Assembly (NCBI GenBank): GCA_000151295.1
Contig: GG745341.1
Coordinates: 38,362 to 78,410, forward strand
DNA: 40,049 bases
Source of the DNA: Allomyces macrogynus ATCC 38327
Taxonomy: Eukaryota; Blastocladiomycota; Blastocladiomycetes; Blastocladiales; Blastocladiaceae
Direction: 5' to 3'
The notes under the pieces are model-generated. The model was given only the letters and a program-made list of their open reading frames with translations, had not been told where the DNA came from and searched no databases. Of this stretch, positions 1-36,771 are shown piece after piece. Position numbers and translations under genes: made by a program. Positions within the stretch are counted from its first letter, which is position 1. Every line of letters begins with the position of its first letter.

Positions 1-750
1 ATCGCGGGCGCGTCGTTCTCCATGTCGCACGCGGCGGCCACGACGGCGGCGTTTTCGCACGCGATAGTCGCAACACCGAGACTCGCACACATGCCCATCG
101 TCGTGTCGAACCCGACTGTCTCGCTCGGCACGGACACACCGGCCGCGCCCGTGCTCTTGCTGGAGCCGAATGTGGGTGTCCTGTCGCCGTCACCCCTGTC
201 GTCGCCGCGTGTCGGGAATACCAACAAGACGACGTCGCCGACAGACGCCGGCAATAACGGCAGCGGCGGGTCGGCCGGGTCGGCCACGACTGCGTCGCAA
301 CCTCCGTCCAGCACGCGGCGGTCCATGACGCGTCAAGTCGCGCGCCGTGCGCGTGCGGCGGCGTCACCTATGGCTATCGTCCCCACCTCCGCCCCTTCCT
401 CAGCCCCGCCACGCACCTGGGCCGCGGGTACCGTCGTCCCCTCCAACATGGTCGCGTCGTCGCCGCCGCCGCCACCGCCGCCACCGCCCGCGGCCCTTGC
501 CGGGCTCGTCTTCCGCCCGGGCCCACCGCTCCCGCCGCACCAGCCGCCGGGGTCGTGGAATTCGGCGCCGCCGTCGTGGGCGCCGCAACCGCGTGCGGTC
601 GCGTACGATTCGGGTGTGTCGACACCGTCGGGGATCTGGTCGTCGTCGCGCGCGTCGTCGGTCGCCGCGGTGTTTCCTGGTGGGCATCCAGCCGGCACGA
701 CTGCGGTGGCGGTAGGGGACGGTGGGCACGCGGCTGCAGTAGCGCCCTAA
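1..750 (+). CDS. 3' end of an unrecognised protein with a disordered, proline/serine-rich tail (5' partial)
   Basis: The frame is open from the first base of the window and ends at TAA 748-750. An ATG lies at 22, but the same frame is open before it, so the gene probably starts to the left. The visible 249 residues are low-complexity: Ala/Thr/Ser-rich at first, a basic patch around residues 105-125, then a nine-proline run near residue 160 and Pro/Gly/Ser-rich sequence to the end. No folded domain is recognisable. It could be the disordered C-terminus of a larger regulatory or cytoskeletal protein, or the last exon of a spliced gene. The opposite strand is also open over much of this stretch because of GC-rich codon use, so coding strand is a moderate-confidence choice. 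Confidence 0.45.
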   Translation: MAGASFSMSHAAATTAAFSHAIVATPRLAHMPIVVSNPTVSLGTDTPAAPVLLLEPNVGVLSPSPLSSPRVGNTNKTTSPTDAGNNGSGGSAGSATTASQPPSSTRRSMTRQVARRARAAASPMAIVPTSAPSSAPPRTWAAGTVVPSNMVASSPPPPPPPPPAALAGLVFRPGPPLPPHQPPGSWNSAPPSWAPQPRAVAYDSGVSTPSGIWSSSRASSVAAVFPGGHPAGTTAVAVGDGGHAAAVAP

Positions 751-1399: not shown

Positions 1400-4300
1400 T
1401 TACTGCCGGTACGCCGACTCGCCGCGCGGTGGCGGCACGTACTGCCCCCCACCCATTTGCGGCACAGCGTAACCAGGCTGCGGCGACGGCTGCGGCGATG
1501 CAGACGGGGAATACCCATAGTACTGCTGCTGCTGCTGCGGCTGCGCGCCCGGTGGCATCAAGTGCTGCGGCTGCTGTTGCTGGTACTGCTGCTGCTGCGC
1601 GTATTGCTGCGCGTACTGCTGCTGCGAGTACTGCTGCTGTTGCGGCGCCGGCTGCTGCGGGTGCGGCATGGGCGGCGGCGGCGATTGCTGGTGGTGCTGC
1701 TGCTGTGCGGCCTGCTGCTGCTGTTGCTGCCGATGCGCAATCTGCTGCAACAGGACGGCGGTCGCGCCGAGAATGAACACTTGGCACGATCGCCGCGACT
1801 TGTGCGAGGCCACGACGAGCCGGCCATTCTTGTCGCACAAGAACTGCAGCGGCGCGTTCGTGTGCTCAATCACCTGCAGCTTCTCGCCCGTGGCAATGTC
1901 GCAAATCTCGACCGAGTTTTCGCAAATCGCAATCACGTAGAGGCCCGGCACGACCAGGATCTTGGACGGGTACTTTGTCCACCGGAACGCCGGCGTGTTG
2001 GGAATCGGCTGCGCGCGCAAATTCACGATAAACGTGACGAGCCCAAACGTGGCCAGGTACCGCCGCTTGGCCGCCGGCACGATCCGCGCGCCGTCCTGGT
2101 AGGGCGACACGGCGGCGGCAATCTTGCGGTTGATCGACGTTTGTCGGCGCACGGTCATGCGCATCGTCTGCAGCACGGCCGCCTCGATCGGCAGCTGATC
2201 GAACGTGCGCCACCGCTCATTCGACTTGGCGGGCGCGCCATTGACGCCACCCTGCGACCGGAAGTCGTTGGCGACATTGATTTCCGTGACCTGTGCGTCC
2301 TCGACGTTGACAATGTTGGCCTCGGACGTGTAGGTGACGAGCACGTCACGCACGAAGTACCCGTCGTGGAAGACCGACGTGAACTTGGGCGTTTCCGGCA
2401 GCCAAAACGCCTTGACTTTCATGAACCGCGAGTAGGGTTCCTTGGCCCACTCGAACAGCGTCAGTGCGTGGTCCACGGTCACGAGCATGAAAATCGACCC
2501 GGCCGTGCGCTCAATGTTGAGATCGGTCGACCCCTTGGTGCCCGGGATCTTGATGAAATCGGCCAACGGGTTGCTCGACCCGTCGACGCCGGCCGTGTAC
2601 GGGTTGGGCCCAAACAGGCTCGCCGACTCGGGGGGTTCGGCGACTTCGCCATTGAATGCCATGCGGATCAGCTTGCGAATTGAGTTGAGCCGGTACTGGC
2701 GCACATGGTCGTTCTTGCCCGACCGTGCGACGAGCACGCCGTAATCTTCGAGTACGGCCATTTGCCGGAACCGCACGCCCTTGATACAAAACACAAAGTT
2801 TTGTTGCGCCTGTGCCGAAGTCAAGTCGGCGACAAGCAGACCCTTTTCCGTGCCGAGCAACAGGTACTGGCCGAAGAAGTCGGAACAGAGAATCTCCTCG
2901 TCGAGAATATACGACTGCTTGGCCTCGATGATCGGCTTGCCGTGCACGTCCTGTGGCTGCTCGTTCACATTGACCTGCACCGCCGAAATCGTCGCGTAGC
3001 CCGCAGCGGCGGGGCTTTGGCCGATATCCTGGCCGTCCGACTGCTGAACGGCGTACTTGGACGGATCATCGTCGAAGTCAATGTCGATGCGCTGGCCGGC
3101 CTTTTTCTTGGCGCGCACCTGCTTGGCCTTTTGCACGAGGTCGGCAACGAGCTCCTTGCCGCGCAGTCCTTCGGCCTTGAGCAGGAACGGGTGCTGCAGC
3201 AGGTCCTCGGCCGACGGCCGTTGCCGCGGGTCGCGGGTCAGGCAGTACTGGATGAACTCGTTGAGAAGCTTGGTGCGCTTCTTGGCGTTTTTCAGGCCGA
3301 TCGGCTGGCTGCCCTGCAGAATGATCTTGAGCGCCGTGAACGGATGCTAAGTTGGTGATACGGCTCGGACAGTCAGTCGTTGGCCCAGGAGAATGCCGTT
3401 CCACCACCGTGGCGCGCGTCGGCAGCGACAGAGCAACAGGGTTCAACACATACAATATCGGCCAGCGGCGGGCACTTATCAGCAAGCTCAATGACCATGA
3501 TGCCCATGCTCCAAATGTCCGACTTGGTGTCGTACCAGTTGTTGCGGTCATTTTCGGAGCGAATGACCTGGACGAAAAGGGCCGAGCGTAAGTTTTGTGC
3601 ATAGCACAGAGAAAATTCGACGAGCGGCACGACGCACCTCGGGCGCCATCCAGAACGGCGTTCCGATAAACGAGTTGGCGCGCACGTTGGGCCCCTTGCA
3701 TCGTGCCGAGACACCGAAATCAGCTAACCGACAACGGAGAGAGGAGGGAAAATGCGTGAGGTTGGTAGTATGGAGGGAAGAAAAGCAGCAACGAGCGCAC
3801 CGAGCTTGACCTCGCCCGACTCGGTCAAGAGCAGGTTTCCGGCCTTGATATCGCGGTGGATGTGGTTGGTCTGGTGGAAATATGCGAGCCCCTTGACCGA
3901 CTCGGCAATGATGACCGAAATGGCCTCCTCGGTGAGCGGCTTGGGGATCACTGTGAGCATGACGACGCGTCAGGAACCCCGGTTGCGCTGCGCATTGCAA
4001 TGAAGGTACAAGGGAACACGGACAACTATAGAGCGTGTCGACGGAGCCACCGCCGCAGTTTTCCATGGCAATCTGAGCGCGACGGCGAAAGATCAGCATC
4101 GCCATCCACGAGCAAGCGCGCACACACACGCTCTCATTCAATCGATACGGCAAACGCACCCACAAGTACAGCCCCTGCATGTAGGTCGTGTAGAGCCCGA
4201 CAATATTGGGATGGTGGCACTCGCGCAAAATCTCGACTTCTTGCCACGTTTCCTTGAGCTCCGACTCCTTCAAGAACACGACCTTGACGGCGGCCATGAT

Positions 4301-4483
4301 ATTGCCGAGCGACCGGACGCGGCCGCGGTAGACATAGCCGTAGTTGCCCTTGCCGAGCGTTTCCAGGACCTCGACGTCATTGTCGGGTGGGCCGAGCTGC
4401 CGCAGTTCGGGAATCTTGTTGTAGATGGCCTGCAGCTTGGCCGGGTTCACGGGCTGCTGTTGCTGCGGCTGCCCGTGCACCAT
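1400..4483 (-). CDS. Ste20/GCK-family MAP4K-like kinase with C-terminal CNH domain
   Basis: Model: complement of 1400..3346, 3454..3567, 3638..3723, 3801..3950, 4027..4072 and 4160..4483; phases agree and give 888 aa. The N-terminal kinase domain has the P-loop GKGNYGYV (residues 44-51), ATP lysine 67, the HRDIKAGN catalytic loop (Asp157), DFG 175-177 and the GTPFWMAPE activation-segment end. The HRDIKAGN form is typical of Ste20/GCK kinases. After a linker, residues about 385-755 match a citron-homology (CNH) beta-propeller, as in MAP4Ks and Rho-signalling proteins. The tail, about 775-870, is glutamine/proline-rich and encoded by CTG/CAG-type repeats. Expected role: cytoplasmic serine/threonine kinase upstream of a MAPK or small-GTPase pathway. 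Introns are 70-107 nt; the donor at 4026 (GTTGTC) is non-consensus, so that boundary is the least certain. Confidence 0.93.
1517..1780 (-). repeat. CTG/CAG-type imperfect trinucleotide repeat encoding the Gln-rich tail of the GCK kinase
   Basis: Repeated ctg/tgc triplets on the + strand read as Gln-rich (with Pro, His, Tyr) codons on the - strand. It is coding, in frame with the kinase gene, and likely length-variable between strains. Confidence 0.75.
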
Positions 4484-5158
4484 GATGGACGGCGGCGCGC
4501 AATCGCGAGCGGTTGGGGTGTGGCGGCAAGAAGCGAGGCGACGGGCTCTGGGCGCGTTTACTGGAGCGCGTCAAGAACAGCAGCGGAGTTGCGCGATTGC
4601 TGGCCTCGTCGAGTTGCAGCGAGTCGCGTGGCGGCACTGCAGCAGGGTGGTCGTGGAGCGCGCTGCAGCAGCTGGCGTGTTGATTGTGCGGGTCGTTGGC
4701 GACACTGCTGGCGACGGCGGCGGCAGGTTCGACTGCTCGCGCCAACCGTCGTGAAGTCGTAAAGAGGTCGCCCAGGCAAACGCGCAAAACAGATGGAGCA
4801 AGAGGCGTTCTGGAGTCGACTTGCTCCAGCGTGGCTTTGCCTTGCAGAACACTGGTCCGCAGCGACTTTGCCCGCGGCAACGCTTCACCGGACGCCGCGT
4901 GACAACGGCGCATTGATCACTTCGCCATCAGCGCTACCACCGTCTCCTTTGTCGCTCCCTGGCACGCCAGGACGTGCGTGAATGCAACCGCCGGCGCGGC
5001 GCGGCTGAATTCGCAGGTGAGGAGGGGCTCCCAGACACACCCGGCTGAAAGCCAGACGGCCAGGCCAATGGCCGCTGGACTGTACCATACCGGGCATGTG
5101 ACGCAGAAACTGGGATCTGGATGAGGGAAAAATCAATATTGTCGCTGATTTGGCGTGT

Positions 5159-16087: not shown

Positions 16088-18029
16088 TTACCAGTCCTCG
16101 TCCTCATCCTCCTCATCCTCGCCCTCCGAATCCGACATTTCAATCGCCGCGCGCCGCAACAAAATACTCGCCACATCGTTCCCACCGGCCGCGCCAGGCG
16201 CCGGCACGTTCGCACCCTTCTTCNNNNNNNNNNNNNNNNNNNNNNNNNNNNNNNNNNNNNNNNNNNNNNNNNNNNNNNNNNNNNNNNNNNNNNNNNNNNN
16301 NNNNNNNNNNNNNNNNNNNNNNNNNNNNNNNNNNNNNNNNNNNNNNNNNNNNNNNNNNNNNNNNNNNNNNNNNNNNNNNNNNNNNNNNNNNNNCACTCCA
16401 ACCGACGTAAAACTTCAACAACGAGTCTGTTGATATACATAATTTAAATCACATCTACACCCTCTACTAATCATCTATAAACTATTAGATGAGCGCGGTC
16501 GCAGTCCATCTAGATGGGATACAATAGCACACCAACATAACCGAAGATGGAAACACCCAACGACTGAAAGCTCCGAAAAAACAGGGACGGGGGCGGCGGC
16601 ATCGCGCCCATCGGGCCCGACGGCGCGGGCGGCGGGGGAGGCGGGATCGCGCCCGCAAACGACAAGCTCGGCGGGAGCGGAGGAGGTGGCGGCATGTTGA
16701 ACGCGTCGGCAGCGCCAAATGACACGGGCGGCGGCGGTGGGAGCCCCATGGCGTCCCACGCGTCAGACGGGGCACCGAATGCCGGCGGTGGCGGTGGGGG
16801 CGGGACCATGCCCATCCCCATGTCGGCGTCGGGCATCGTGGCAGGCAGCGGCGGCGGCGGCGGGATCAGTCCTTGGAGTCGCGCCGGGTCGTACCCAGCA
16901 AACAGCGCGTCCGGGGCCGGCAGGGCCATCGCGTCCGTGGCCGGTGGCGGCGGCGGTGGGATCATCCCCGCATCTTTCGGCGGCGCCGGGAACGCGCCAT
17001 CTTGGTCCATTGCCGGCGGTGCGAGTGACGCCGTATCCGACGCGACGCCTCCCTCGGCGCCCTCCTCCGCCGTGAGCCCCCCGTTCGACGCCGTGACTTG
17101 GCTCTTGTTGCGCTTGGCCGTCGACCGCTTCCGCTGCGCGCCCGCGGCGGTGGACTGCCGCTGCATACTGCGCGCGGCTTTGCGCGCGGCCTTCTTTTTC
17201 TTACGCTCCTCCTCGTCCTTGGTCATGACCTTGCGCCACTCGTCAATGAAGAAGTCTGGGTAAGAGTAGAACGCCATCGACTGCAAGCCGTCGTCGCGGT
17301 AGGCGTCGAGCCGGTCGAGCGCGGGCGGTGCCGTGCACTGCGCGTAGGCCGCGGCGATCGCCGGCGGGCGCGTGGAGCGTGTGAGGAACCCGAAGAGCGG
17401 AGTGGCCGTCGGGACCATCTTGACGGGTGCGGGCGCGAGAAAGTGCGCTGAGACGGCGCCGGACGTTGCGGCAAGCTGTGCATGGTCCGAGTCGATTGGG
17501 TCGTGCAGGACGCGCGCAACATCAGCGAGCGAGTCGCCAGCGTGCCGCGCCGAGGCGGTGAGCGTGTCGATGCGCGTAGCGAGGGCCACGGTGCGGTGCG
17601 CAGTCGCGGAGACGCGCGTTGAGAGGTCTCCAGATGGGGAGCAGAGAGGGTCAGCGCAGTCACTCCCAAGTCGCGATCGCCGCATGAGACTGCCGGGATC
17701 ACGCACTTGACATGAGCGTGGCGGCATGGTCGGTGACGGACGCGAGCAGCTCGATGCAGCGCAGGACCTGCAACGTGCTGAGCTGCTGCGCATCGGCGGG
17801 CGACGAGCCGGCAGCCGGTGGCGGCGGCGGCGAGGCCGTAACAGCGCGTGCGAGCGTCATGGCCGTCGAGCACGCGTGACGGTCGCTTTGCGGCAAGTGG
17901 CGGGCAGGGTTACAGCGTGGATCGTGCTCGATGCTTGATGCGAGTTGCGCGTGCGCGTCGTCGTTGTTGTGGTGCCTGGGCGGCGGTATTGGTGATGAGA
18001 GCAACGGCTTCTTGGGGCTTCTTGGCCAT
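16088..18029 (-). CDS. SCAR/WAVE actin-nucleation-promoting factor, broken by an assembly gap
   Basis: Visible exons on the complement: 18006..18029 (tentative first exon), 17707..17926, about 16580..17627, and 16088..16223 after the gap. The N-terminal SCAR homology domain shows HDPRCNPARHLPQ, STLQVLRCIELLASV and a segment around LDAYRDDGLQSMAFYSYPDF, equivalent to the family's LTPYRDDG...FYTNPSYFF signature. A basic KKKKAARKAAR region and long PPPPP blocks follow. The final 45 residues, NDVASILLRRAAIEMSDSEG then acidic residues ending EDEDW, match the central/acidic (C-A) end of the VCA module. The WH2 motif should lie in the missing 170 bases or near them. SCAR/WAVE activates Arp2/3 downstream of Rac. 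Introns at 17927-18005 and 17628-17706 are each 79 nt. The first has a non-consensus GTTGCT donor, so the exact N-terminus is uncertain. Confidence 0.88.
16224..16393. other. Assembly gap (170 N)
   Basis: An uninterrupted run of N lies inside the SCAR/WAVE gene. The true gap length may differ from 170. Confidence 0.99.
16394..16580. other. AT-rich island next to the assembly gap
   Basis: This stretch of about 190 bp is roughly 60% A+T, unlike its GC-rich surroundings. It sits where the SCAR proline-rich exon should continue into the WH2 region. The proline-rich frame loses protein character at about 16580. It may be an AT-rich intron, an insertion or a mis-joined contig end. Confidence 0.7.
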
Positions 18030-19543: not shown

Positions 19544-20716
19544 TCATCCGCCGCCACCCGTCGACGACCCCTCGTCGTCCCCCAACACGAGCATGACGTT
19601 ATCCACGCGGTCGAGGTCATGCAAAAACGGCACCAAATCCAACAACTCCGAGTCGGTCGGATCATTGAACCAACTGGTCACCGGAATCGCATTCGCGCGA
19701 TGAAACAGGTAACTCGCCGGCGAATTATCAATGATAATCACGTTCGCCAGGTCCCTTCCGAGCCTCGACAGGTCCTTGACGTACTGCCCCTTGTGGTGCA
19801 GGCACGATTCGCGGAACAGCCGGTGCTTGACGAGATTCCTGTGCGGGTCGAGTAAATCGAGCACCGGGTCGGCGTACTTGGCGAGCGACGCCGTGAACAC
19901 GACCACTTCAAACTTGTCGCCGACGGCGCGGAGAAAGGCGTCAACGCCGGGCCGCTTTTGCACGTATACGTGGTGGATTTGCCGGTCGATTTCGACGGGC
20001 ACGATGAAGTCGGCGTTCGGGACCAGCTTGAAGGACGAGTGCAGCAGGGTTTCGTCTGGTGGAGTGCAGGAGGGGGGGGGGGGGGTGAGCGCGCAAGATT
20101 CGGGGACCGAGGGCGGGGATCGAGAGGACGGACCGAGGTCCAGCACCAAACACTTTTTCCCAACATCCTCCGGCGCAAGCGGCACGAGCAACGCCTGCGA
20201 CGGGGACGCGGCACTCCTCCTCGCATCGTTCCGCGCGACCACCGTCGATTTCCCTACACGCCTCCTCGCATCCGACGACGCGGCCGACGGCTGCCTGCGC
20301 CACGGCGGGACCGTGAGCAACGCCGCGAGTGACGCGACCAAGGGACTATTCAGCGGGCGTCCGGGCGACGGCGGTGGCGGCGACGGTGGCGGGTCGGCGG
20401 GTAACGGGTGCACCGTGAGTGACGGCGGTGGGCCCCCACCGCGGCGCCATGCCGGAGACGAGGCGCGAGTGGATGACGAGGTCGGTGTCGGCGGCGCGAC
20501 GGACGTGATCAAGTCCGCGGGCGGGTCCGGGGTTGCCGCGTAGATGGGCGCGCCCGCGACGGCCATTGCGGGGGCTGCCGGGCAGGGCGATGCGGGCCGC
20601 GACGACGACGTTGAGGCGGACGGCGACGGCGGGCGGCGGTGCGTGTCCGGGATCCCGCACAGGCACCGCCAGATGGCCGCTCGGAACGCGGCAGTGAGCG
20701 CGGACATGACGCCCAT
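19544..20716 (-). CDS. FCP/SCP-type (Psr1/Nem1-like) protein phosphatase
   Basis: Model: complement of 19544..20055 and 20134..20716, giving 364 aa. Splicing the 78-nt intron (20056-20133) restores the catalytic motif [15 protein letters not shown]; the intron falls inside the first Asp codon of DET. Further HAD/FCPH features are [67 protein letters not shown] and a WFND stretch. This is the small-CTD-phosphatase catalytic domain. The ~200-residue N-terminal region is Pro/Ser-rich and disordered. The chosen start gives MG with Cys residues soon after (WRCLCG), which resembles the lipid-anchored start of yeast Psr1/Psr2. That is suggestive only, because the frame stays open for several hundred bases upstream without an ATG and an upstream exon could supply a different N-terminus. 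Confidence 0.88.
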
Positions 20717-21596
20717 CCGGCGCGTCGGCGTGCCGCGTGCGCCTGTGCGGCTGGCACGGCGCGAGGAGGTTGAAGAGGCGGCCGACGCGTGCCGTGGCGA
20801 GCCGCGCGATGGGGTTGTTGGGGTACTTGGCAGGCGCGACGGCGTGCCAGAGGCAGCCGAGGCGGGCTTGCGGTGCGTCAGGACCGCGGAGGCATTGACG
20901 GCAGTGGCGACGGCCGTGGCGGGCGTCGGCGCGGGCGCTGGAGATGCAGTGGAGCCGACGGCAGCGTCGCTGGGCAGCAGCAGCGGGGCCGCATCGGGGT
21001 CGAGCGACGTGGGCTTGGCGGGCGCATGGAGGTGGTCGGCGGCAGCGGCGGCGGGCTGGACATCGACGACGTGGGTCTGGGACTCATCGCGGCTGTCGAG
21101 TCGACCAAGCTGGCTGGCGCGCGCAGAGTGCGGGGAGTGGGGGTGCGCGGGCGTGCGCGTCGCTCGCGCTGAGCGGGGACGCGACGTTGCACGAGTGCAG
21201 TGGAACGGTGCCGGTGGTCGTCGACGTTGTCGTTGCGTGGGGCCGGCCCTTGTTCGCAGGCGCGAGCAGAGAGCAAGAACGAAGCCAACCCAAAACCGAA
21301 GCGGTCACGTTGTCCAGGTGCGGGACGCGAGACTCTTCCGCACCGCCGCTCACGCGACTGCCACGTGCACTCCCACCGCACCGATGGCAAGCCGCACCGC
21401 CGCGACCAACCGCGACCAGCTGCAACCGACCAGCCAGCCAGGTCGACCCGACCGCGACGACGACGACGACACGTCGACGGCGAATACACTCCTGCCCAAG
21501 ACTGCACGCAGAAGATACCCGCACGCAAGCGCCACCACGTCCACCCGAAATCAACCCGGCCGGCCGCCAAATTCCGACTCCACCACCACCATCAAG
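20717..21596. promoter_or_regulatory. Divergent intergenic region between the phosphatase and MSH2
   Basis: About 880 bp separate the two assigned starts. GC-biased composition leaves several frames open. The phosphatase frame continues without a stop through most of it and reads as plausible disordered sequence (for example [20 protein letters not shown]), so part may be coding. No TATA box is evident near either start. Confidence 0.4.
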
Positions 21597-24500
21597 ATGA
21601 GCGACAAGGACGACCGCCCCGCGCTCGACCTTGACAAGGCCGCGCAGCAGGGATTTGTCGCCTTCTTCCGGTCTTTACCCTCCAAGGAACCGAATACACT
21701 GCGCCTGTTTGCGCGCAAGGCCTCGTCCCACGGCGGCGGCGACTTTTACTCGGCGCACGGCGACGACGCGCTGCTGATCGCACAGGAGTTCTTCAAGACC
21801 TCGTCGGTGCTCAAGCACCTCGGCCCCGCGTCCAACCCGCTGCCGGGATGCACGCTCTCTTATGCCAACTTCCAGCAACTGCTCGCCGACGCGCTGCTCA
21901 ACCGCGGCTGGAAAGTCCAGATCTGGCACTCGACGGGCCGTTCCGCCAACCAGTGGCAGCTCGCCCGCGAGGCCTCGCCGGGAAATCTGCAGCAGGTCGA
22001 GCACGATTTACCCGACTCGGCCTGGCTGCCGACGGCTGCGGCGCCCGCGCCCGACCCGGTCCTCGTTGCCATTCTCATCCAAGACGACGAACAACCTGCC
22101 TCGACTGTGGCATCACAAGCAGCAGCACCGGCGACGCGGCACGTCGGCGTCGCTCTCGCCAACGCCTCCGACAAGACGCTCGCCCTCGCCGAAATCCACG
22201 ACACCGACCAGCTCGCACACCTTGAGGCCCTGCTCATCCAGCTTGGCGTAAAGGAAGTGCTCGTCCCGACCGGCGTCACTGACGCGCGACTTACGACGCT
22301 CCTCGACGCGGCCACTGTCGTGACCACGCGGTACTCGGCCGACGCGTTCAAGTCGCCACCGGTCGCGACTGCCCTGCACCGGCTCCTCTCTACGGCCACG
22401 CCGCCCGCGGCCGCCGACGCTCTTATCACCACCCACCCGCTCGCCGCGCGCGCGCTCAGCGCCGTCCTCGACTTCCTCGACCTCGCTACCGACCGACACG
22501 CGGCCCACCAATTCTCGCTGACCGCGCACCACGTCGGCGGGTCGATGCGGCTCGACCAGCACGCCGTCGCCGCACTCAATCTCGTCGGTGACGGCGCGCG
22601 CAAATCCACGCACCTCTACGGCCTGCTCAACAAGTGTGTGACCGGCGCCGGGTCGCGCACTTTGCAGTCGTGGATCCGGCAACCGCTTGTGGAACGCGCT
22701 GCGATCGAGACGCGACTGGGGTTGGTTGAAGCGCTCGTTGACGATGCGGCCGTGCGGGATGCGGTGCGGGACTGGTTGACGCAGGCGCCGGATGTCGGGC
22801 GGTTGGGGATGAAGTTGCGCAAGGACCGCGCGACCCTCGCGGACGTCGCTGCGCTGTACCGGCTGGTCGCGCGGTTGCCGGACCTCAGGCCGGTGCTCGT
22901 TGATGACCCGACGTCGACGGCGCTGGCTGATCGGTACGCCGCGGTGCTGGACCAGATCGAGACCGATTTGGCGCCGTTTAGCGAAAAAGTGACGGAGACG
23001 CTGGATGTGGACGCATGGGGCGACCACAACGACGTGCGCATTCGAGCGACGCTGGACCCAGAGTTGGAGGAGTTACATGAGCAAATGGCTGCGACGAGGG
23101 AGGAGATTGAACCGGAGGCGAACCGGGTCGCGGGGATGTTGGGGCTCGAGTTGGGGAAGGTCGTCAAGGTGGACCAGTCGGCGATTCATGGGCATCATTT
23201 GCGCGTGTCGTTGACGGTACGTTAGTTTTGGATTGAGCGCACGAGGTGGACGGGCTAACCTTTTTCGAGGGTGTAGCACTCGAGCCTGATCCGGCAAAAG
23301 AAAAAGGACCTGATTGAGCTTGCGACGCTCAAGTCGGGCGTGCTGTTTACGACTCCGGCACTGCGCGCGGTCTCGAACAAGCTCACGGACCTGGCCGGCC
23401 TGTACGACACGCTGCAGGCGGCCATGGTCAAGGAGTTCATGGCGGCGATGCGTACGTTCACTTTTTTCTCCTTCCTCCTCCGGTTTTTTTCCCTCGCTCA
23501 CATTTTCGCAACCCTTTCCAGAGGCCTACCTGCCCACGTTCACGACGCTCAACGACACGCTCAGCGAGCTCGACGTGCTGGCCGCGTTTGCGCAAGTCAG
23601 CGTGCACGCGCCGACTCCTTACGTGCGTCCGACGCTCAACGACAAGGGCCGCGTGCACCTGCCCAACTTGCGGCACCCGTGTATTGAGGTGCAGGACCTG
23701 GTGCAGTTTATCCCAAACGACGCGACCTTGGTCCGCGGCGAGTCGGCGTTCCAGATCATCACGGTCCGTCCCAACCATTTCCCAGTGCCACACGAACCAC
23801 ATGCGCACTCACCACCACGCAACACCAATGCAGGGTCCCAACATGGGCGGCAAATCGACCTACGCGCGATCCGTCGGGCTCGCGGCGCTCATGACGCAAC
23901 TCGGGTGTTTTATCCCGACTGACCCGGGTGCAACGTTACCCATCTTTGACGCGATCCAGTGCCGCATCGGCGCCGGCGACCAGCAATTCCGCGGCGTGTC
24001 GACATTCATGGCCGAAATGCTTGAGACTGCATCGATCCTCCGCTCGGCCACGCCAAATTCGCTCGTGATCATGGACGAACTCGGCCGCGGAACATCGACC
24101 TACGACGGGTTCGGGCTAGCCTACGCGATTGCGCATTACTTGGCGACGGTCGTGAAACCGGCGGCGACGTTGTTCGCCACGCATTTCCACGAGCTGACGA
24201 CGTTGGCGGATAAGGTTCCCGGAGTCGTGAACCGGCACGTCGTCGCGCATGTGGATGACACGCAGGGGATCACGTTGCTCTACAAGGTGGCCGATGGGGC
24301 CGCAACGCACTCGTACGGGATTCATGTCGCGAAACTGGCCGGGTTCGCGCCAAGGGTGGTCGCGCTCGCGCAGGCGAAAGCGGATGAACTCGAGCGGGCT
24401 GCGAGTCACGGTGGTGGTACTGGGCGGAAGCGCGCGCGCGAGGAGGAGGATGGCGCGGTGGAGTTGGCGCGGCGAATCGCGGCCGAAGTGCGCGACGTGG

Positions 24501-24637
24501 ATTTGAGCAAGCCGGATGCGAGGGAGAAGGTGGAGCGGATTCGCGCGCGGTATGCGGCCGCGGTGCGCGGATGCTCGCGGCTTGCGGCGCTCGTGGGTGG
24601 GGGCGTCGTAGGTGCAGGCGAGTCGGTTGGTACGTGA
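21597..24637 (+). CDS. MSH2: DNA mismatch repair protein MSH2
   Basis: Model: 21597..23216, 23277..23451, 23522..23763 and 23834..24637; phases close and give 946 aa, close to the usual MSH2 length. The N-terminus lacks the Phe-x-Glu mismatch-wedge motif, as expected for MSH2. It reads [20 protein letters not shown], which is MutS domain I. The lever/clamp region includes [36 protein letters not shown] and a clamp helix. The ATPase domain has Walker [10 protein letters not shown] (rebuilt across intron 23764-23833), the ST.RG-type loop [18 protein letters not shown], Walker [17 protein letters not shown] and the ATHFHELT switch. It acts in the nucleus with MSH6 or MSH3 to recognise mismatches and loops. 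The frame is open upstream of the ATG, but family similarity begins at 21597. Introns are 60, 70 and 70 nt. Confidence 0.97.
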
Positions 24638-25050: not shown

Positions 25051-27598
25051 CCATTTCGATCCCGGGCGCTACACCAATGCCGACCCTGCCTGTCAATTTT
25101 GCGACCCCGGCGCTCACCGCACCCGCCCGCGCCCGCAACTACGACGGCAGCGGCGCCGAGCAGCGCGTTGATCGACTCGATCAACGTAATGGTTCTTCGC
25201 ACTGGATCCTGCAATGGGCATCTTGACGCCAACCAAATCTAACCAACCTCTGCTCGAACCTGCTCGACAGGCCACGGTCCTGATCGCTGTGCGCGTCAAC
25301 CCGTCCGACCCGGCCGTACACGTCTGCGAGCCAGTGGTCCTCACGCCCACCGGCGCGCCCGTGCCGCTGCAGGCATTGCTTGAGGACAAGACGCACCCGT
25401 TGCCGCCGTTGGCGATCATGCTGCTGCACTTGCTCTCAGCCGTCCCGCTGCCGTTGGCCGATGAGGCGCCGAGCATGTCGTGGATCCCGCGGTCGGGAAG
25501 TGGTTTGAGCCGTATTTGTGACTGGGGTACGTTGGATGGTTTCCTGCTGAAGCACTTGTCGTGCTTGTTCTGCTCGAGTTGAGTTTGCAATTGACTGACT
25601 ACACTGGCTAAATTCTTGAAGGCGCCCGTCCAGCGCGCCGTGGACAATGCCGGTCCCAGCACTCTGGCCAGTGCCCGGTTTGCCGACAGCACCCAGATTG
25701 CCGCCAACTCAAGAACTCAAGGACTCCCGTCGGTGCCCGGACTGCTCCTGCCGCCGGCCACGGCGCTGCCGATCCCAGTGCCCGGCACGCTCCCGGGGTT
25801 CCCAGCCGGAAACGACGTTGCGTCGCTGCTCGCACAGCTGCAGGCGGTCCAAGGGATCCCTCCAGGTCCAGCTCCCGCACCACCGGCGCCTGCAGCTTTA
25901 GCTCCTGCTCCAGCACCGGCGGGTCCCACCACGACCGCGGCATCGGCGCCACTGCCACCGTCGATGCGCGTGTCCCCACCGGCGCGCGTGCCCTCGCCCA
26001 AGCGCGCACCGACCCCGTGCGCTCCTGAACGCGCACCGACCCCACGCGCTCCTGAACGCGCACCCACGCGCCATCTCCCGCACGCGCCACTGACGGCGCC
26101 CCTACCCCGATCTCTCCGCCGAGGCCGGCCCCGCATGCGCCCTCGCCCGCGAAAACCATCACCGAGGAACGGCTTGGGCCGACGTCGATTATATCCCGGA
26201 TCCGCAACCCGGAAGACGTGGCCGCCGCGCCGTCGCCACCAGCGGGTGGTGGCGAGGGGACCGTGAAGCGGCCGGCGCCGGCGAGAGAAGTGGCGCCCGA
26301 AGAGGTGACGGTGCCGGTGCTGCCGCGGGCGGAGCGACGTGGGAGATCGCGGTCGCCGGTTGCGGAGGGCCGGGCGCGGTCGCGGTCGCGGTCCCGGTCG
26401 CCACGGCGGTGTCGGTCGCGGTCCCGGTCGCGGTCTCGCTCATCCCGCAGGCACCGGTCACGTTCGCGGTCGCCTCGCCGGCACCGCTCCCGATCGCGGT
26501 TTCGCTCGCCCCGCCGGTACCGCTTGCGCCACCGGTCGCGGTCGCGTTCTCGTTCGCCGCCGCACGATCTGCGCGACATTCTGTGCTCGTCGCGCCCTTC
26601 AGCACCATCGCCGATCGTTTCGCCGCGCGCGCCGAGTCCCGCTGCTCCCGTGCACTCGCCTAAACCAACGGTCATCCCGGCCCCGATCCCAACCCCGATT
26701 CCCGCGCCCGCTCCCGCTCAGGCCCCGTCGTCGTCCTCGCCGACCGACCTGCGCGCATTGCTCAAGCCGCAACGCACGAGTATCAAATTTCTCGCTCGCG
26801 TGTTCCCGCCGCATACGCCGTTACCGGAACGGTGGCTCGAAAAGGTGCGGCTGGCGCTGTCATTTTTCGTCGCGGGTGGGGTGCATGCGGTGCAGTGGAC
26901 GGCGCGTGACGTGTTTTCGCTCGAGGTGAAGATGATGCCGAGGTACGATTCGATTTGATCTGATCGGGCGGGGTTGGAGGATGAGAAGGAAACGACTCGG
27001 GAAACTGACGCATACTCGGGTCGTTGTCAGGATCGTGGAACGGATCATGGAGCTGTCGACCATGACGATCAGTGGGCGCTGGGTGACGGTACGACTCCAC
27101 GTGTGTCTCCCCCACCCATCCCCCATCTTGACCCAAATCCATTCGCGTAGATGACGCCCGAAGACCCGACCGATTTACCCGCCGACCCAACTGTCCTGCA
27201 ACGGCTGCATATCCCGCGCGCGCTCTACGTTCTCGCCAACTTGCCGGCAACGCGGCTGCTCGTGGAACTGCGCGAATTTCTCGAGGCGCGCGGCGTGGAA
27301 GGACGGCTCGATATGGTCGGGTCGCCGTTCCCGAACTGCCCGTAGCAGTGCGGGTATTTTACGCTCGCGCGCGGGTGCACCGTGGAGCCGATTGTGTTTG
27401 ACTGGGTCGAGTTCAAGGGGTGGCGCATGGTGGTACTTTTTCGTGAGAGGGACGGGGATCGGAGGGCAGGGACTCACGGGATTCGGTGGCGCCGACGTGT
27501 AGGTGCGGCGGATTGAGAACCCAGAGCAGTTCTTTTCGGTGGATAATATGCGGCCGTTGCTCGATGCGATTGTGCCGTTGTGCGACAGCCAGTGGTAG
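25051..27598 (+). CDS. Family gene A: RS-rich protein with tandem RRM-like domains (5' end unresolved, in-frame TAG)
   Basis: Exons visible: one ending 25185, then 25271..~25526, 25622..26016, 26124..26942, 27031..27088, 27151..27432 and 27503..27598. The 25186-25270 intron has a TCTAACC branch site. The N-terminal domain (ATVLIAVRVNPSDPAVHVCE) resembles that of gene B. A Pro/Ala-rich linker and an RS domain (RSRSRSRSPRRCRSRSRSRS) follow. Next comes a first RRM-like unit with SIKFLARVFPP, then IVERIMELSTMTISGRWVT encoded by the 58-nt exon. A second unit begins ALYVLANLPATRLLVELREF and ends VVRRIENPEQFFS. The family is unrecognised; RS plus RRM suggests RNA processing. Oddities: TAG at 27343-27345 inside otherwise homologous sequence, a frame change handled here by a 107-nt intron (26017-26123), and a phase mismatch at the exon ending ~25526. 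No convincing ATG leads into the first intron. It may be a functional gene with misplaced introns or a decaying copy. Confidence 0.6.
26019..26075 (+). repeat. 27-bp direct repeat in gene A
   Basis: The unit GCGCTCCTGAACGCGCACC recurs with a 27-bp period, a multiple of three. In the upstream frame it encodes APERAPTPR-like repeats; in the exon model it falls in the intron 26017-26123. The clean codon periodicity is an argument that it may be coding. Confidence 0.7.
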
Positions 27599-28189
27599 GT
27601 AGACGGGGGAGCAGTTGGCGGCACCCGGGCCGCCATAGTGCGTCGCTTGCCGCGCGCGAGGCACTGTACGGGCTGGGGTGGCCTTGTCCACCGAATACAT
27701 ATAGGTATTTATTTATCTATCAGCGAGGCCGAGCTCGTTGCTCACGGCCGGAGCGCGGCGGAGCGTTCTCCAATCTTTGGCCGGATCGTTGCGCGTCCCT
27801 GGCCGAGAACAGACCAGGGTCAGGTGATGCTCGTTGGCTGGATGCCCGGGCTGTGTCCTCCAAATTGACGAAGTTCGGACTGTTGCTCGACCCCAGTGAA
27901 CGCTAACTTGTGCACGCTGCCCGTAATCCGACCGCATCGTCGCGCAACTTGTCGTCGTGCCGGACTCCGCCGGGGTGGTTACTGCTAGCCAAGTGAAGCG
28001 CGACAATCTGCATTTCACCCCGACCACGGTGATCAACAGCCAACCAAGCACCAACCAAATCCCCCGTCCAGTCTTGTCAAACAACGACCACCACCATGGG
28101 CACGCCAGAGGCCAATGGCCTCATTCTCGCGCCGTCGCGCGCGCAGCACGCGCCCGCGCCGACGTCCGCGACTGCTAACGACACGAGCC
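27599..28189. other. Intergenic region between family genes A and B
   Basis: It includes an AT-rich segment with TATTTATTTATC near 27709-27720, likely in the 3' end of gene A. An alternative ATG at 28096 opens a short frame (MGTPEANGLILAPS) that could be a first exon of gene B. Confidence 0.45.
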
Positions 28190-31086
28190 ATGTCCGTCAC
28201 GCAGTTGATCCGTGATCCCAAGCAGCACAGCACGCACGCTGATCAATTCGCACGCGCCTACCTGCAGACCATTCTCCTCGCCCTGCACGTTCCGCTGCAC
28301 GCAGCCCCCGCCGCCGGCCCGCCACCAACCGTGCGCATCTGCGAGCCCGTGCTGCTCTCGACCCCAAACGACGCGGCACGCGCGCACCACGTTCTCGGCG
28401 CCGTCTCGCTCGATTCGGAGCAGATGCCCTGCAACGTGTCGCCGACGGTGCACCAGCTCTTGCCGACTATGCGCGCGCTGCCAGGCGCGTTTCATACGAT
28501 TGTGCGCGCGACGGGGAACACGCCCGTGTCGGTGCCGGCCAAGGACGAGTGGTTCATGAAGCTGAAAGAGTACGGATTGTGCTTGGTGTGCGCGCTTTTG
28601 GTGCGGTGTCGCGTTGGGCTGACCTTTCGACGGTTTTCGATGGCACAGAGGGCAAGCGAATCAGGTCAATGGATCGTCCCGTCTCCTCACGAACGCGCCG
28701 TTTTTGCAGCTGCCGCCAACTACATTGCTACCCACGACTGCTCCACCAGGAACGGCGCTCGGCGCGGGTCTGATGCCGGCCCTACAAGTCCCGACCGCAG
28801 ACTCAGCTCTCATGCTGCCGTCCTTTCTCGCGAATCCACCATTTCAAGAAATTTCTCTACCTCAACGCGCGTGCACCGACGCGAAATCCGGTAATGACGT
28901 GAAATCTGGCACCGCGAGCAACGACCAGGCTACCAAGACCAGCGACGACCAGGCCGTCAAGACCATTAACGTCCCCAGCAACGACGAGGACGACGACGAA
29001 GTCGCGCAGATTCTGTCACAAGTTAATGCTGCAAGCCAAGCGCCCGCAGAACTCGCGACCAAGGCGAGCGCGAGCGCGACTCTCCCTGCGGCGGTGCCCA
29101 CTTCGACGCTCCCCGCTACTGTGCCAACATCGGCTGCTGCCGCTACGGTGTCGACGTCGAATATCTCTGCCGCTCTGCCGACCTCGTCCCTCCCCGGAAC
29201 GCTGCCGACGTCGACCCTCCCCGCCGCGCTGCCGACCCTGTCCTTCTCAGCGCCGCACATCCCGCACGCGACCTCCGCGCCGTTTTCCCTGCCGACTGCT
29301 GCGCCGCCAGCGTTCGCGTGGTCTATGCCGCCGCCAGCTGCCGCTCCAATGGCGGGCCACATGTCGCCGCCAGGCGCTCCCTTACCAAGCCTCTTGCCAC
29401 CGGCCGCTCCTCCCCTCGCGGGTTTTATGCCCCCGCCCGCTGCGGCCGCGTCGCTCTTGAATTTCTCGGCGGCACTCGGGCTCCCGATGCCCAACCCGGT
29501 GCTGCAGAATCAGTTGAGCGCGCTGGGCATGTTGCCGAGCATGCTCCCGCCGGCAGCGGGTGCCACAGCCGCTACCGCCCAAATCCCGGCACCAGCATCG
29601 GTCGGGGCGAAAGTGGCGCCCGCAGCGGCCACGGCTGAGTCGCACCCCGACGCGACCGCGCGCGACTGCGGGTCGCGCTCCTGGCAGGACCGGAGCCCGT
29701 CGTCGCGACGCGATCGCGACCGGAGCAAGTCCCCACGCCGGGACCGTGACCGCGACCGCACCAAGTCGTCGCGGCACCGCAGCAAATCGCTGCGCCGGTC
29801 GCCGTCGCGCCGCGACAAGGACCGCCGCGACCGGTCGCGGTCTCGGTCGAGATCCGGGTCGCAGTCGCGCCGCAGTTCAAGGACCGGAAACGGTCGAGCA
29901 AGCACCGGTCCCGGTCGCGGTCTGGCTCTCGGTCGCGCCGGCGGGCGACGAATAGGTCCCGCTCACGGTCGCGCTCGCGCACGCGGCGCAAGTCGTCGCG
30001 GTCCGGGTCTCGGTCGCGGTCGCGGTCCCACACACGCCGCAGCACGAAGCGCGCGCGGTCGCGGTCCCGCTCCCCGTCCCGCACGAAACGCGCGCGGTCG
30101 CGTTCGCGGTCGGCGTCGCGTCACCGCCACCGGTCGGACATGCCCCTGTACCCCGCCGACGAGGTCCCGTTTGTGGCGTATTATATGCCGCGCATGAACA
30201 CGCTGGCGCGGTCGTGGCCGAACCGGATCCGGCACGCGCTGCAGCCGATTGGCGCGATGGCGAGCATGCAGCTCGTCGAGAACCAGGGCAAGATTACGTT
30301 TACGATGCCGAGGCGGCCAGGGTACGCTGGAGTTCCGCATGCGGTCTCGGTGCGAGAGAGGTTGAGCGGTTGGAGAACTGACGTGTGGATTCTGGGGGTA
30401 GGATCATTGAGCGCTTGATGCAGAAGTCGGGGCTGGTTTTGGCCGGGGTTCGGCTCGAGGTGCGTCCGTCTCAGCGCCCCGGAGCGCGGTTTTTTTTTGG
30501 CGCGCGACGCACGTCGCTGACCTCCCCCTGCATCGGTCTAGTTTGAACCGATCCTCAGCGCCGACAAGCCGCACCCGCCGCTGCATCTCCCGACGTTACC
30601 CGTTTTCATTCTGCTCAACTTGCCTCCCGTGGGCGTCATTGACGACCTGCTGTCGTTCTTGACGTACAACTGCCCCGCCGATCAGATCTACTTGGACTTG
30701 GTCGGCGCCGTCCGGCCGCACAAACAGTGGTCGTACGTACCGCGTCTGCATTCCCCTCCTCCGCACCGTCTCGTCACATTCTCACCCAACGGCTCCACTT
30801 GCGTTGGAAATGGATAGATTTGCGTTTGCGACGGTTCTCCCGGGTGGGGACCCGAAAGCGGTCGAGGCCATGCACGGTCGCGAAATTGGGGGACGCAAGT
30901 TGATGGTGCGTGCTTCACGTCGCGTCATGGGTGATGCGATTGGTGGGTGCCGGCATCTGACAATGAGGGGTGTTGCGCGCGTGTTGACTGTAGGTCAAGC
31001 GAATCGACGACCCCAAGCGCTTTTTTGCAACCATCGACTCGCTGGTCGACCTGCTCGCGTCAGTTGGGCGCGTTCCGCAAGTATAA
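28190..31086 (+). CDS. Family gene B: RS-domain protein with tandem RRM-like domains
   Basis: Model: 28190..28585, 28710..29839, 29899..30321, 30402..30459, 30542..30732, 30818..30905 and 30994..31086, about 792 aa. The N-terminal domain (TILLALHVPLHAA, VRICEPVLLSTPNDA) parallels gene A. A Pro/Ala/Thr-rich middle with MPPPAA-type repeats and a long RS domain follow. The first RRM-like unit has VPFVAYYMPRMNTLARSWPN, KITFTMP and, from the 58-nt exon, IIERLMQKSGLVLAGVRLE. The second has PVFILLNLPPVGVIDDLLSF, FAFATVLPGGD as an RNP1-like strand, and KRIDDPKRFFAT. An SR-like RNA-processing role in the nucleus is inferred from the RS and RRM-like parts; I do not recognise the family. The frame changes inside the RS domain; the 59-nt intron 29840-29898 is only one way to reconcile it. 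An upstream start at 28096 or 28115 is possible. Confidence 0.72.
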
Positions 31087-35417: not shown

Positions 35418-36771
35418 TTACTCGGACGTGCCGGAAAAGCGTTCGAGCAGCCCGCGCAAAGTCTTTGGCGACCTAAAGAAGTCAATGGGGTTGCGCAGCC
35501 TGATGGCCTGCAAGGTGTGCCAAGAACAAGAGCGGTCGTCAGTTTCACGCAATCCCCAGCAGCACGAGCCAAGGAAGACGGACCTGCAGCTTGTTGCCGA
35601 TAAACCGGACAACCAATGCACCGCCATTGTTGGTGCTTGTTGGGGCCAGGGTCAAGGAGGCCATTCTTCAATCGGCCCCAAGTCAGCAATCCGGAGTGGC
35701 GCATCCTTGATGAAGTAGGCGAAAGCGACCGCAATGGCTGACCTTGCTGGGCATGTACGGCACAAGATTGACGAGGTCGAGGACGCCGCTGATGCGATGC
35801 TCGTTCAGGACATGAATCACGTCCATTCGTTGAGCGCTGCTCGGAATGTTGAGGATGAGATAGAGCATGGGCTGTGGCGAAACAAGCGGGCGCGTCGCAT
35901 TGGCAGGCCGAATCTGGAAATGATGGGAAGGCATGAGGACGTGAACACCGTGATCGACGTGAACACCGTGATCGACGCGCACACCAAAAGCTCCAGAACG
36001 ACCGCGAAGAGCCTCTTTATGTACCGAAAACAACGTCTGGTCCGCGACAAAATGGGCATACTCAGCGACGCGACGGACCAAGCTAAATCGGGTGGAACGA
36101 AACGTCAGCCAACTCGCCAAACTGGTTCTTGGATTGGCTGGCATGAACAAAAGAATGCTCGACGGCATGGTGAACGTGACACACTGCTTGGCCGCATCAA
36201 ACGTCGCGTCATACACGGCGCCAAGCCCGCTCATGTGCTGATCAAGACTGCGGCGCCAGTGATCGTCGCCGGAACCTTGTACGGTGACAGGTTGCGACAA
36301 ATGCTGTCCGGCCAGGGCGCACACTCCGGGATGGCGTCGCCGGTACGCTCAGAAGTTCTGCACCAGCGGCTGGCGACGCTGCAGGACTACCAAAAGAGGG
36401 GCGATCGCAACGGGCACTGCCCGCAGCATAAACTGAATCGGAGAGCTTCGAGAACTGTGCGCACCAAGGGCTCTTGAGCGTTGGTGCGAAAGGAGTGGTG
36501 GATGCAGGCTGCACGAAGTATCAGCGCCATGAGCGCCAATCTCGCCTTCCTCAATTTCGGTTGGCTCGAGGGCGGCTGGCAGCAGATGCAGTTCTTCTTG
36601 TGCCAGCACTTGCTGGAGAGGGTCATCTGTGGTCGATTTCGCAACTGGAAGTGTCACCAGCGGCGATGCGGGAACGACAGCACTATCAAGCCATGCGAGT
36701 CAAAACGCAATGTTGGTGAACCCGATGCCGCGGTCCATCCTTGAAAGACCTGAGCGTAGTGCCTGATTCAT
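35418..36771 (-). CDS. Family gene C: compact third member of the A/B RRM-like family
   Basis: Model: complement of 35418..35507, 35584..35665, 35759..35913, 36025..36082, 36164..36303, 36391..36644 and 36750..36771; every phase closes and gives 266 aa. The last four exons align residue by residue with genes A and B. The first RRM-like unit has SSPIQFMLRAVPVAIAP and CVTFTMP, then LVRRVAEYAHFVADQTLFS from a 58-nt exon. The second unit begins PMLYLILNIPSSAQRMDVIH and ends FIGNKLQAIRLRNPIDFFRS. In A and B the matching ends are RRIENPEQFFS and KRIDDPKRFFA. C lacks the long RS domain and the N-terminal domain; its short N-terminus contains EPTEIEEGEIG. The terminal 22-nt exon and the 36304-36390 intron (which removes an in-frame TGA) are tentative. 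Two donors, GTCGAG at 36163 and GTCTTT at 36749, are weak. Confidence 0.65.
35938..35976. repeat. 18-bp tandem repeat inside an intron of gene C
   Basis: GACGTGAACACCGTGATC occurs twice in a row, followed by a partial third copy (GACG). It lies in the intron 35914-36024 of gene C and is perfect between the two full copies. Confidence 0.9.

Follow-up and report, generated by a model that had tools for sequence, protein, structure and literature searches.

Genes A and B are two neighbouring genes in a window of 40,049 nucleotides (the whole stretch of DNA that was analysed) on contig C62 (1,321,136 bases) of Allomyces macrogynus ATCC 38327, an aquatic blastocladiomycete with a 54.0-Mb genome in 75 contigs. 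We think it probable that gene B, together with the open copy of gene A on contig C64, belongs to an SR-like family of Allomyces RNA-binding proteins, which was born by duplication of a conserved gene of the same domain order located on contigs C30 and C70. The domain order, the predicted RRM folds, the homology, the purifying selection, the clustering and the reciprocal decay of A and B are directly supported. Given what is generally known of proteins combining RRMs with RS stretches, B is most likely an SR-like nuclear RNA-binding protein, and the A/B family may act in splicing or mRNP regulation. Contig C64 is the homeolog of the window region, with DNA identities of 76.6, 82.4 and 78.6% over the three longest aligned stretches; in passages of two papers, a whole-genome duplication is linked with A. 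macrogynus or the species is termed polyploid (PMC5913265 and PMC11878562).

Organization of genes A and B

The frame translations contain every element that an earlier note on this DNA had quoted, in the order that it had given for both genes. That is, an N-terminal domain (the 'CEP' domain, with VHVCEPVVL in A and VRICEPVLL in B) is followed by a Pro/Ala linker, an RS run, two C-terminal units and C-terminal ends that align (RRIENPEQFF from 27503 and KRIDDPKRFF from 30997, respectively). The proposed kinship of the two genes was examined using leave-out profiles, built without A, B, their C64 copies and a third remnant (earlier profiles including A and B had served to collect the seed rows), against the 831 ORF pieces of at least 20 aa in the window. 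The N-domain and RRM2 of each gene are still recovered in this way. With reversed pieces as control, no match at E ≤0.5 was obtained for the N-domain or RRM2, and RRM1 gave 0.025 and 0.29. The features are as follows, omega being the Nei-Gojobori dN/dS between homeologs (short segments, no errors computed):

25274..25462, + strand: gene A, portion of the N-terminal ('CEP') domain preceding the frameshifting gap (leave-out HMM E 2.5e-9; alignment with the C64 copy)
26340..26580, + strand: gene A, RS stretch, approximate ends (translation; RS/SR dipeptide count)
26775..27097, + strand: gene A, RRM1-like unit, two exons, approximate ends (homeolog omega 0.19 over 73 codons; HMM)
27217..27435, + strand: gene A, RRM2, with an in-frame stop (TAG, 27343-27345) inside (27217-27336 matched at E 1.4e-5 by the leave-out HMM; C64 copy open)
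27503..27598, + strand: gene A, C-terminal RRIENPEQFF segment and stop (translation)
28096-28191, 28268-28569, 28649-29863, 29956-30321, 30402-30459, 30542-30732, 30818-30905, 30994-31086 (stop included), + strand: gene B, eight exons (spliced translation identical to AMAG_07989)
28268..28569, + strand: gene B, N-terminal ('CEP') domain exon (leave-out HMM E 4e-10; homeolog omega 0.32)
29670..30121, + strand: gene B, RS-richest stretch, residues 474-593, 44 RS/SR dipeptides (intron 29864-29955 inside)
30161..30550, + strand: gene B, RRM1, residues 607-682 (leave-out HMM, halves E 3.3e-5 and 4.3e-4)
30602..31005, + strand: gene B, RRM2, residues 700-776, RNP1-like FAF kept (leave-out HMM E 3e-4 and 0.066)
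30997..31083, + strand: gene B, C-terminal KRIDDPKRFF segment and last helix (translation; predicted model)
35764..36267, − strand: third, partial family copy (RRM1 half 36160-36267, HMM E 2.1e-8; RRM2 half 35764-35865, E 0.013)

Gene B is AMAG_07989 (P0001), a protein of 802 aa annotated as 'hypothetical protein', and its seven introns are all of the GT-AG type and 76-92 bases long. The sequence and the public gene model agree in joining the RS and RRM parts of B in one gene. A change of frame in the RS stretch is explained by the GT-AG intron 29864-29955 of the public model. The stop codon at 31084-31086 comes after RRM2 and one helix, without a third RRM. Between the N-domain and RRM1, the best sense frame holds 38 RS/SR dipeptides per 80 aa in B and 37 in A, versus at most 8 and 9, respectively, in 20 shuffles; in the B region, 17 RS/SR dipeptides are also found in an antisense frame. 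The weakest link in the domain assignment is the putative RRM1 of A, the second half of which gives E 0.004 with the full profile and just 0.12 with the leave-out profile, and which is supported instead by homeolog conservation (85% over 73 codons).

With the leave-out profiles, the third copy is matched at E 0.0019 (RRM1 half) and 0.0014 (RRM2 half); no N-domain was found for it. This copy adjoins a frame at about 37.2-39.3 kb (− strand) that by eye resembles a histidine kinase/response regulator.

Predicted RRM folds and the N-terminal domain

The description of the C-terminal units as two degenerate RRM-like units downstream of an RS domain holds up in the predicted model of B. Both residues 607-682 (RRM1) and 700-776 (RRM2) are modelled as β-α-β-β-α-β, with pLDDT values in ten-residue blocks of 72-88 and 52-87, respectively, and the first Foldseek match of the model is the tandem RRMs of U2AF65 (E 2.3e-6); the VIA-align rows for the B model cover RRM1 only. 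Moreover, a profile of 12 RRM2 sequences compared with PDB sequences gave a best E of 1.1e-4, and all but two of the 55 matches at E ≤10 can be recognised as RRM proteins, from their names or from what is known of them. At the Pfam RRM gathering score no RRM match was obtained in the six cluster proteins P0001-P0006, the Pfam RRM gave one weak match (E 0.0056) among the 12 RRM2 members, and a phmmer search of PDB with one cluster RRM pair returned nothing significant (best E 0.36). The RNP1 aromatics of RRM2 are kept at position 3 in 23 and at position 5 in 21 of 26 family sequences, and at both positions in 18; in RRM1 they are not evident by eye in an alignment of 20 rows.

The N-terminal domain, which could not be named from the sequence alone, is still without a name after database searches. 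There was no Pfam match for the B N-domain or over the N-domain of P0001-P0006, no NCBIfam match over the N-domain in the four proteins scanned, and no convincing match to a solved fold in two fold searches, an absence that by itself proves nothing. The predicted model of the domain is moderately sure (pLDDT 74.1). A Pfam match of P0005 to TFIIA (E 0.55) was dropped as low-complexity.

A large, clustered and divergent family

The two genes had been described as a paralogous pair, but N-domain places at E ≤1e-3 number at least 33, of which these are only two. With one central N-domain as query, 31 places were matched across the genome at E ≤10, of which 19 reach E ≤1e-3. In the approximately 220 kb examined, iterated profiles matched 26 N-domain pieces at E ≤1e-3, which come to 24 genes once two split ones are joined, as well as 30 RRM1 and 33 RRM2 pieces; two pieces of each kind belong to the likely founder described below. 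Reversed sequences gave no match up to 0.05. Nine of the 19 places of the first search lie outside these 220 kb and add to the 24 genes, which makes at least 33; all counts are lower bounds. The family places are grouped on contigs C62, C64, C22, C61 and C26. N-domains split over two pieces occur at C22:160.8k and C62:133.3k; at C22:141230-141885 a pair of N-domain matches is separated by about 140 bases and may stem from a single gene with two such domains.

The domain order is largely shared. Taking the next downstream RRM piece as part of the same gene, an RRM piece follows on the same strand within 3.5 kb in 22 of the 24 N-domain genes, the exceptions being C62:142020 and the truncated B copy on C64. 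In 20 of these 22 genes the RS/SR count in the best sense frame between N-domain and RRM is above all 20 shuffles (exceptions C62:104009 and C62:142671). In two of the 22, however, the antisense strand has a frame with more RS/SR than the sense frame (37 versus 14 per 80 aa at C62:128324, and 19 versus 18 at C22:147338), so that the RS signal is partly one of repeat-like DNA. The public models P0003 and P0004 have no RS run, their best 120 residues holding three and two RS/SR dipeptides, respectively, which is probably due to another reading frame or different splicing.

Divergence within the family is high, only 13 of the 171 pairs among 19 aligned N-domains being more than 40% identical. The N-domain nearest to that of B among 18 others is its own C64 copy (69%), followed by the C64 copy of A (34%), which is itself up to 38% identical to several other members. 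Homologue searches returned seven proteins, all from Allomyces; these searches required shared five-residue words, which limits their sensitivity, and the family may be more widely present. Among the seven, P0004 of A. javanicus is probably orthologous to B (61% identical as aligned), and the C22:151.8k member also has a likely A. javanicus orthologue (73% over the N-domain). The suggestion of an old duplication is thus upheld, as both genes have homeologs on C64 and B, in addition, has its likely A. javanicus orthologue. In the literature, no mention was found of the locus tags of P0001, P0002, P0003 and P0005, and no title on an RS-RRM family was among the matches listed for Allomyces or Blastocladiomycota with genome, duplication, RRM or gene-family expansion.

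A likely founder on contigs C30 and C70

The C30 region from 26511 to roughly 28.9 kb, like the homeologous one on C70, carries a gene apparently encoding an N-domain, an RRM-like unit, an RS stretch, two RRMs, an IDDPQSFF tail and a further RRM-like unit (exons joined by eye). This gene resembles the cluster genes in its N-domain, RS, RRM, RRM and DPxxFF tail, and differs from them in its extra RRM-like units and its omega of 0.01. Because of the same domain order and the slow change, we propose it as the likely founder of the family. One of its RRMs passes the Pfam RRM_1 cut-off (23.5 versus 20.7 bits), and a search of the genome with cluster RRMs reaches the founder (on C70, E 2.3e-8 at 29% identity). 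The N-domains of founder and cluster are related by hhalign at E 2.9e-6, scoring 34.7 where 100 column shuffles reach at most 16.7. In a plain search at E ≤1, the founder N-domain recovered just itself, C70 and C26:129291, and no cluster member; the extra RRM-like unit used as query matches only C30 and C70.

Several candidate relatives of the founder were discarded: Cupin_6 (E 0.0073), Peptidase_M19 (0.019) and SrfB (0.066) for its N-domain, all below the Pfam cut-offs, and CstF-64 (E 0.012) and PTBP2 (0.043), too weak, for the C70 RRM pair in a phmmer search of PDB. A homologue search with the C70 RRMs gave nothing at E ≤0.01 and also missed its own gene, perhaps owing to a length limit. Another slow-type N-domain, 44% identical to that of the founder, lies in a long open frame at C26:128901-133900.

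Purifying selection and reciprocal decay

Purifying selection is seen in each of the nine homeolog segments measured. Omega is 0.32 for the N-domain of B; 0.24, 0.19 and 0.33 for the N-domain part, RRM1 and RRM2 of A; 0.19, 0.09 and 0.26 for the pair C62_124/C64_105; and 0.18 for RRM2 of C62_121/C64_102. That is, the eight cluster segments range from 0.09 to 0.33, versus 0.01 for C30/C70.

That both genes are working here is not supported, as A looks broken in the window. Compared with its C64 copy, gene A carries a 13-base frameshifting gap after 25463, in the N-domain exon, and a 46-base difference with a change of frame near 26064, inside a repeat and of uncertain placement. Since these are joined by the in-frame TAG in RRM2, and the exons of the C64 homeolog are open, A is probably a pseudogene here or holds sequence errors. 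Conversely, gene B is complete in the window, and its copy on C64 is truncated, with the RS and RRM parts lost. The two genes thus appear to have decayed reciprocally, A probably being lost on C62 and open on C64 and B complete on C62 and truncated on C64, so that each contig keeps one of the two.

Alternative explanations and possible role

This decay could also suggest that the clusters are mainly a graveyard, i.e. relaxed duplicates of a housekeeping RS-RRM gene of which few still work. The broken A, the truncated B copy, the third remnant without N-domain and the split N-domains would all fit; however, omega is well under 1 for A, B and two further homeolog pairs, several members are open over long frames, and three members have likely relatives in a second species, so that we consider this rather unlikely. 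Alternatively, the more than 30 divergent RS-RRM genes with their new N-domain might form a repertoire of RNA recognisers in an RNA-level conflict, binding RNA of transposons or other mobile elements, viruses or the other subgenome, with diversity kept by turnover. Such a system would parallel, for RNA, the expanded arrays of zinc-finger repressors. The mostly low identity between clustered N-domains, the fact that the two homeologous contigs have lost different copies and the higher omega of the cluster relative to the founder point in this direction, but purifying selection in nine of nine segments, the lack of known targets and of a silencing domain, and the retention of some members in A. 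javanicus make it an unlikely explanation.

Known RS-RRM proteins offer a further comparison. In canonical SR proteins the RRM or RRMs come first and the RS domain after; the A/B family shares the RS stretch and RRMs with these (SRSF) proteins, but its RS stretch precedes both RRMs and an N-domain is added. In U2AF65 an RS stretch precedes tandem RRMs, RBM39 (CAPER; SF-CC1, TIGR01622) has RS followed by RRM-RRM, and both carry a C-terminal UHM, a third RRM. The family could therefore be read as divergent U2AF65 or RBM39 (CC1) splicing factors, in line with the domain order, the first Foldseek match and weak TIGR01622 matches of P0005 (AMAG_08014; E 3.6e-5) and the founder (E 0.0019). We regard this as very improbable: these matches score 23 and 17.3 bits, respectively, far below the cut-off of 231.65, no TIGR01622 match is listed for P0001-P0003, and B ends after RRM2, without the UHM, and has the extra N-domain. 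Furthermore, a separate RBM39 gene elsewhere in the genome passes the cut-off (256.6 bits), a U2AF65-like gene is also found elsewhere (E 3.9e-73; 250.3 bits, below its cut-off of 310.3), and family places are absent from the 71 and 36 profile matches at E ≤1e-3, including those to TIGR01642 (U2AF65). Allomyces zoospores store mRNA and ribosomes, and the same domains would fit stored-mRNA or mRNA-export factors instead of splicing regulators, a role to which we would give hardly any probability.

Under the favoured reading, an SR-like family derived from the C30/C70 gene, the RS stretch would be phosphorylated and would recruit the protein to mRNP or splicing assemblies in the nucleus. RRM2 would bind single-stranded RNA through its kept RNP1 aromatics, RRM1, seemingly without these aromatics, could be a protein-contact or shape-reading partner, and the N-domain may be a protein-contact module. 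Splicing-type RS-RRM proteins are usually few and slow-evolving. Here, a very strongly constrained gene (homeolog dN/dS 0.01) is accompanied, within a single polyploid fungus of an early-diverging lineage, by dozens of divergent relatives that lie in clusters. The RS and RRM parts are known, and what is new is the unnamed domain and the unusual expansion; together with the contrast between slow and fast paralogues and the reciprocal decay of homeologs, the unnamed domain makes the system a test bed for such expansions.

Other features of the window

Two further weak matches of the leave-out profiles in the window are probably due to chance, namely an N-domain match at 70-153 (+ strand; E 0.069) and an RRM1 match at 17525-17644 (− strand; E 0.013, near the best of the reversed control, 0.025). 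Frames with protein kinase and CNH domains, perhaps a single gene, occupy 1403-4570 (− strand), and a gene of the MutS family (Pfam MutS I, II, III and V) lies at 20544-24634 (+ strand), immediately upstream of gene A.
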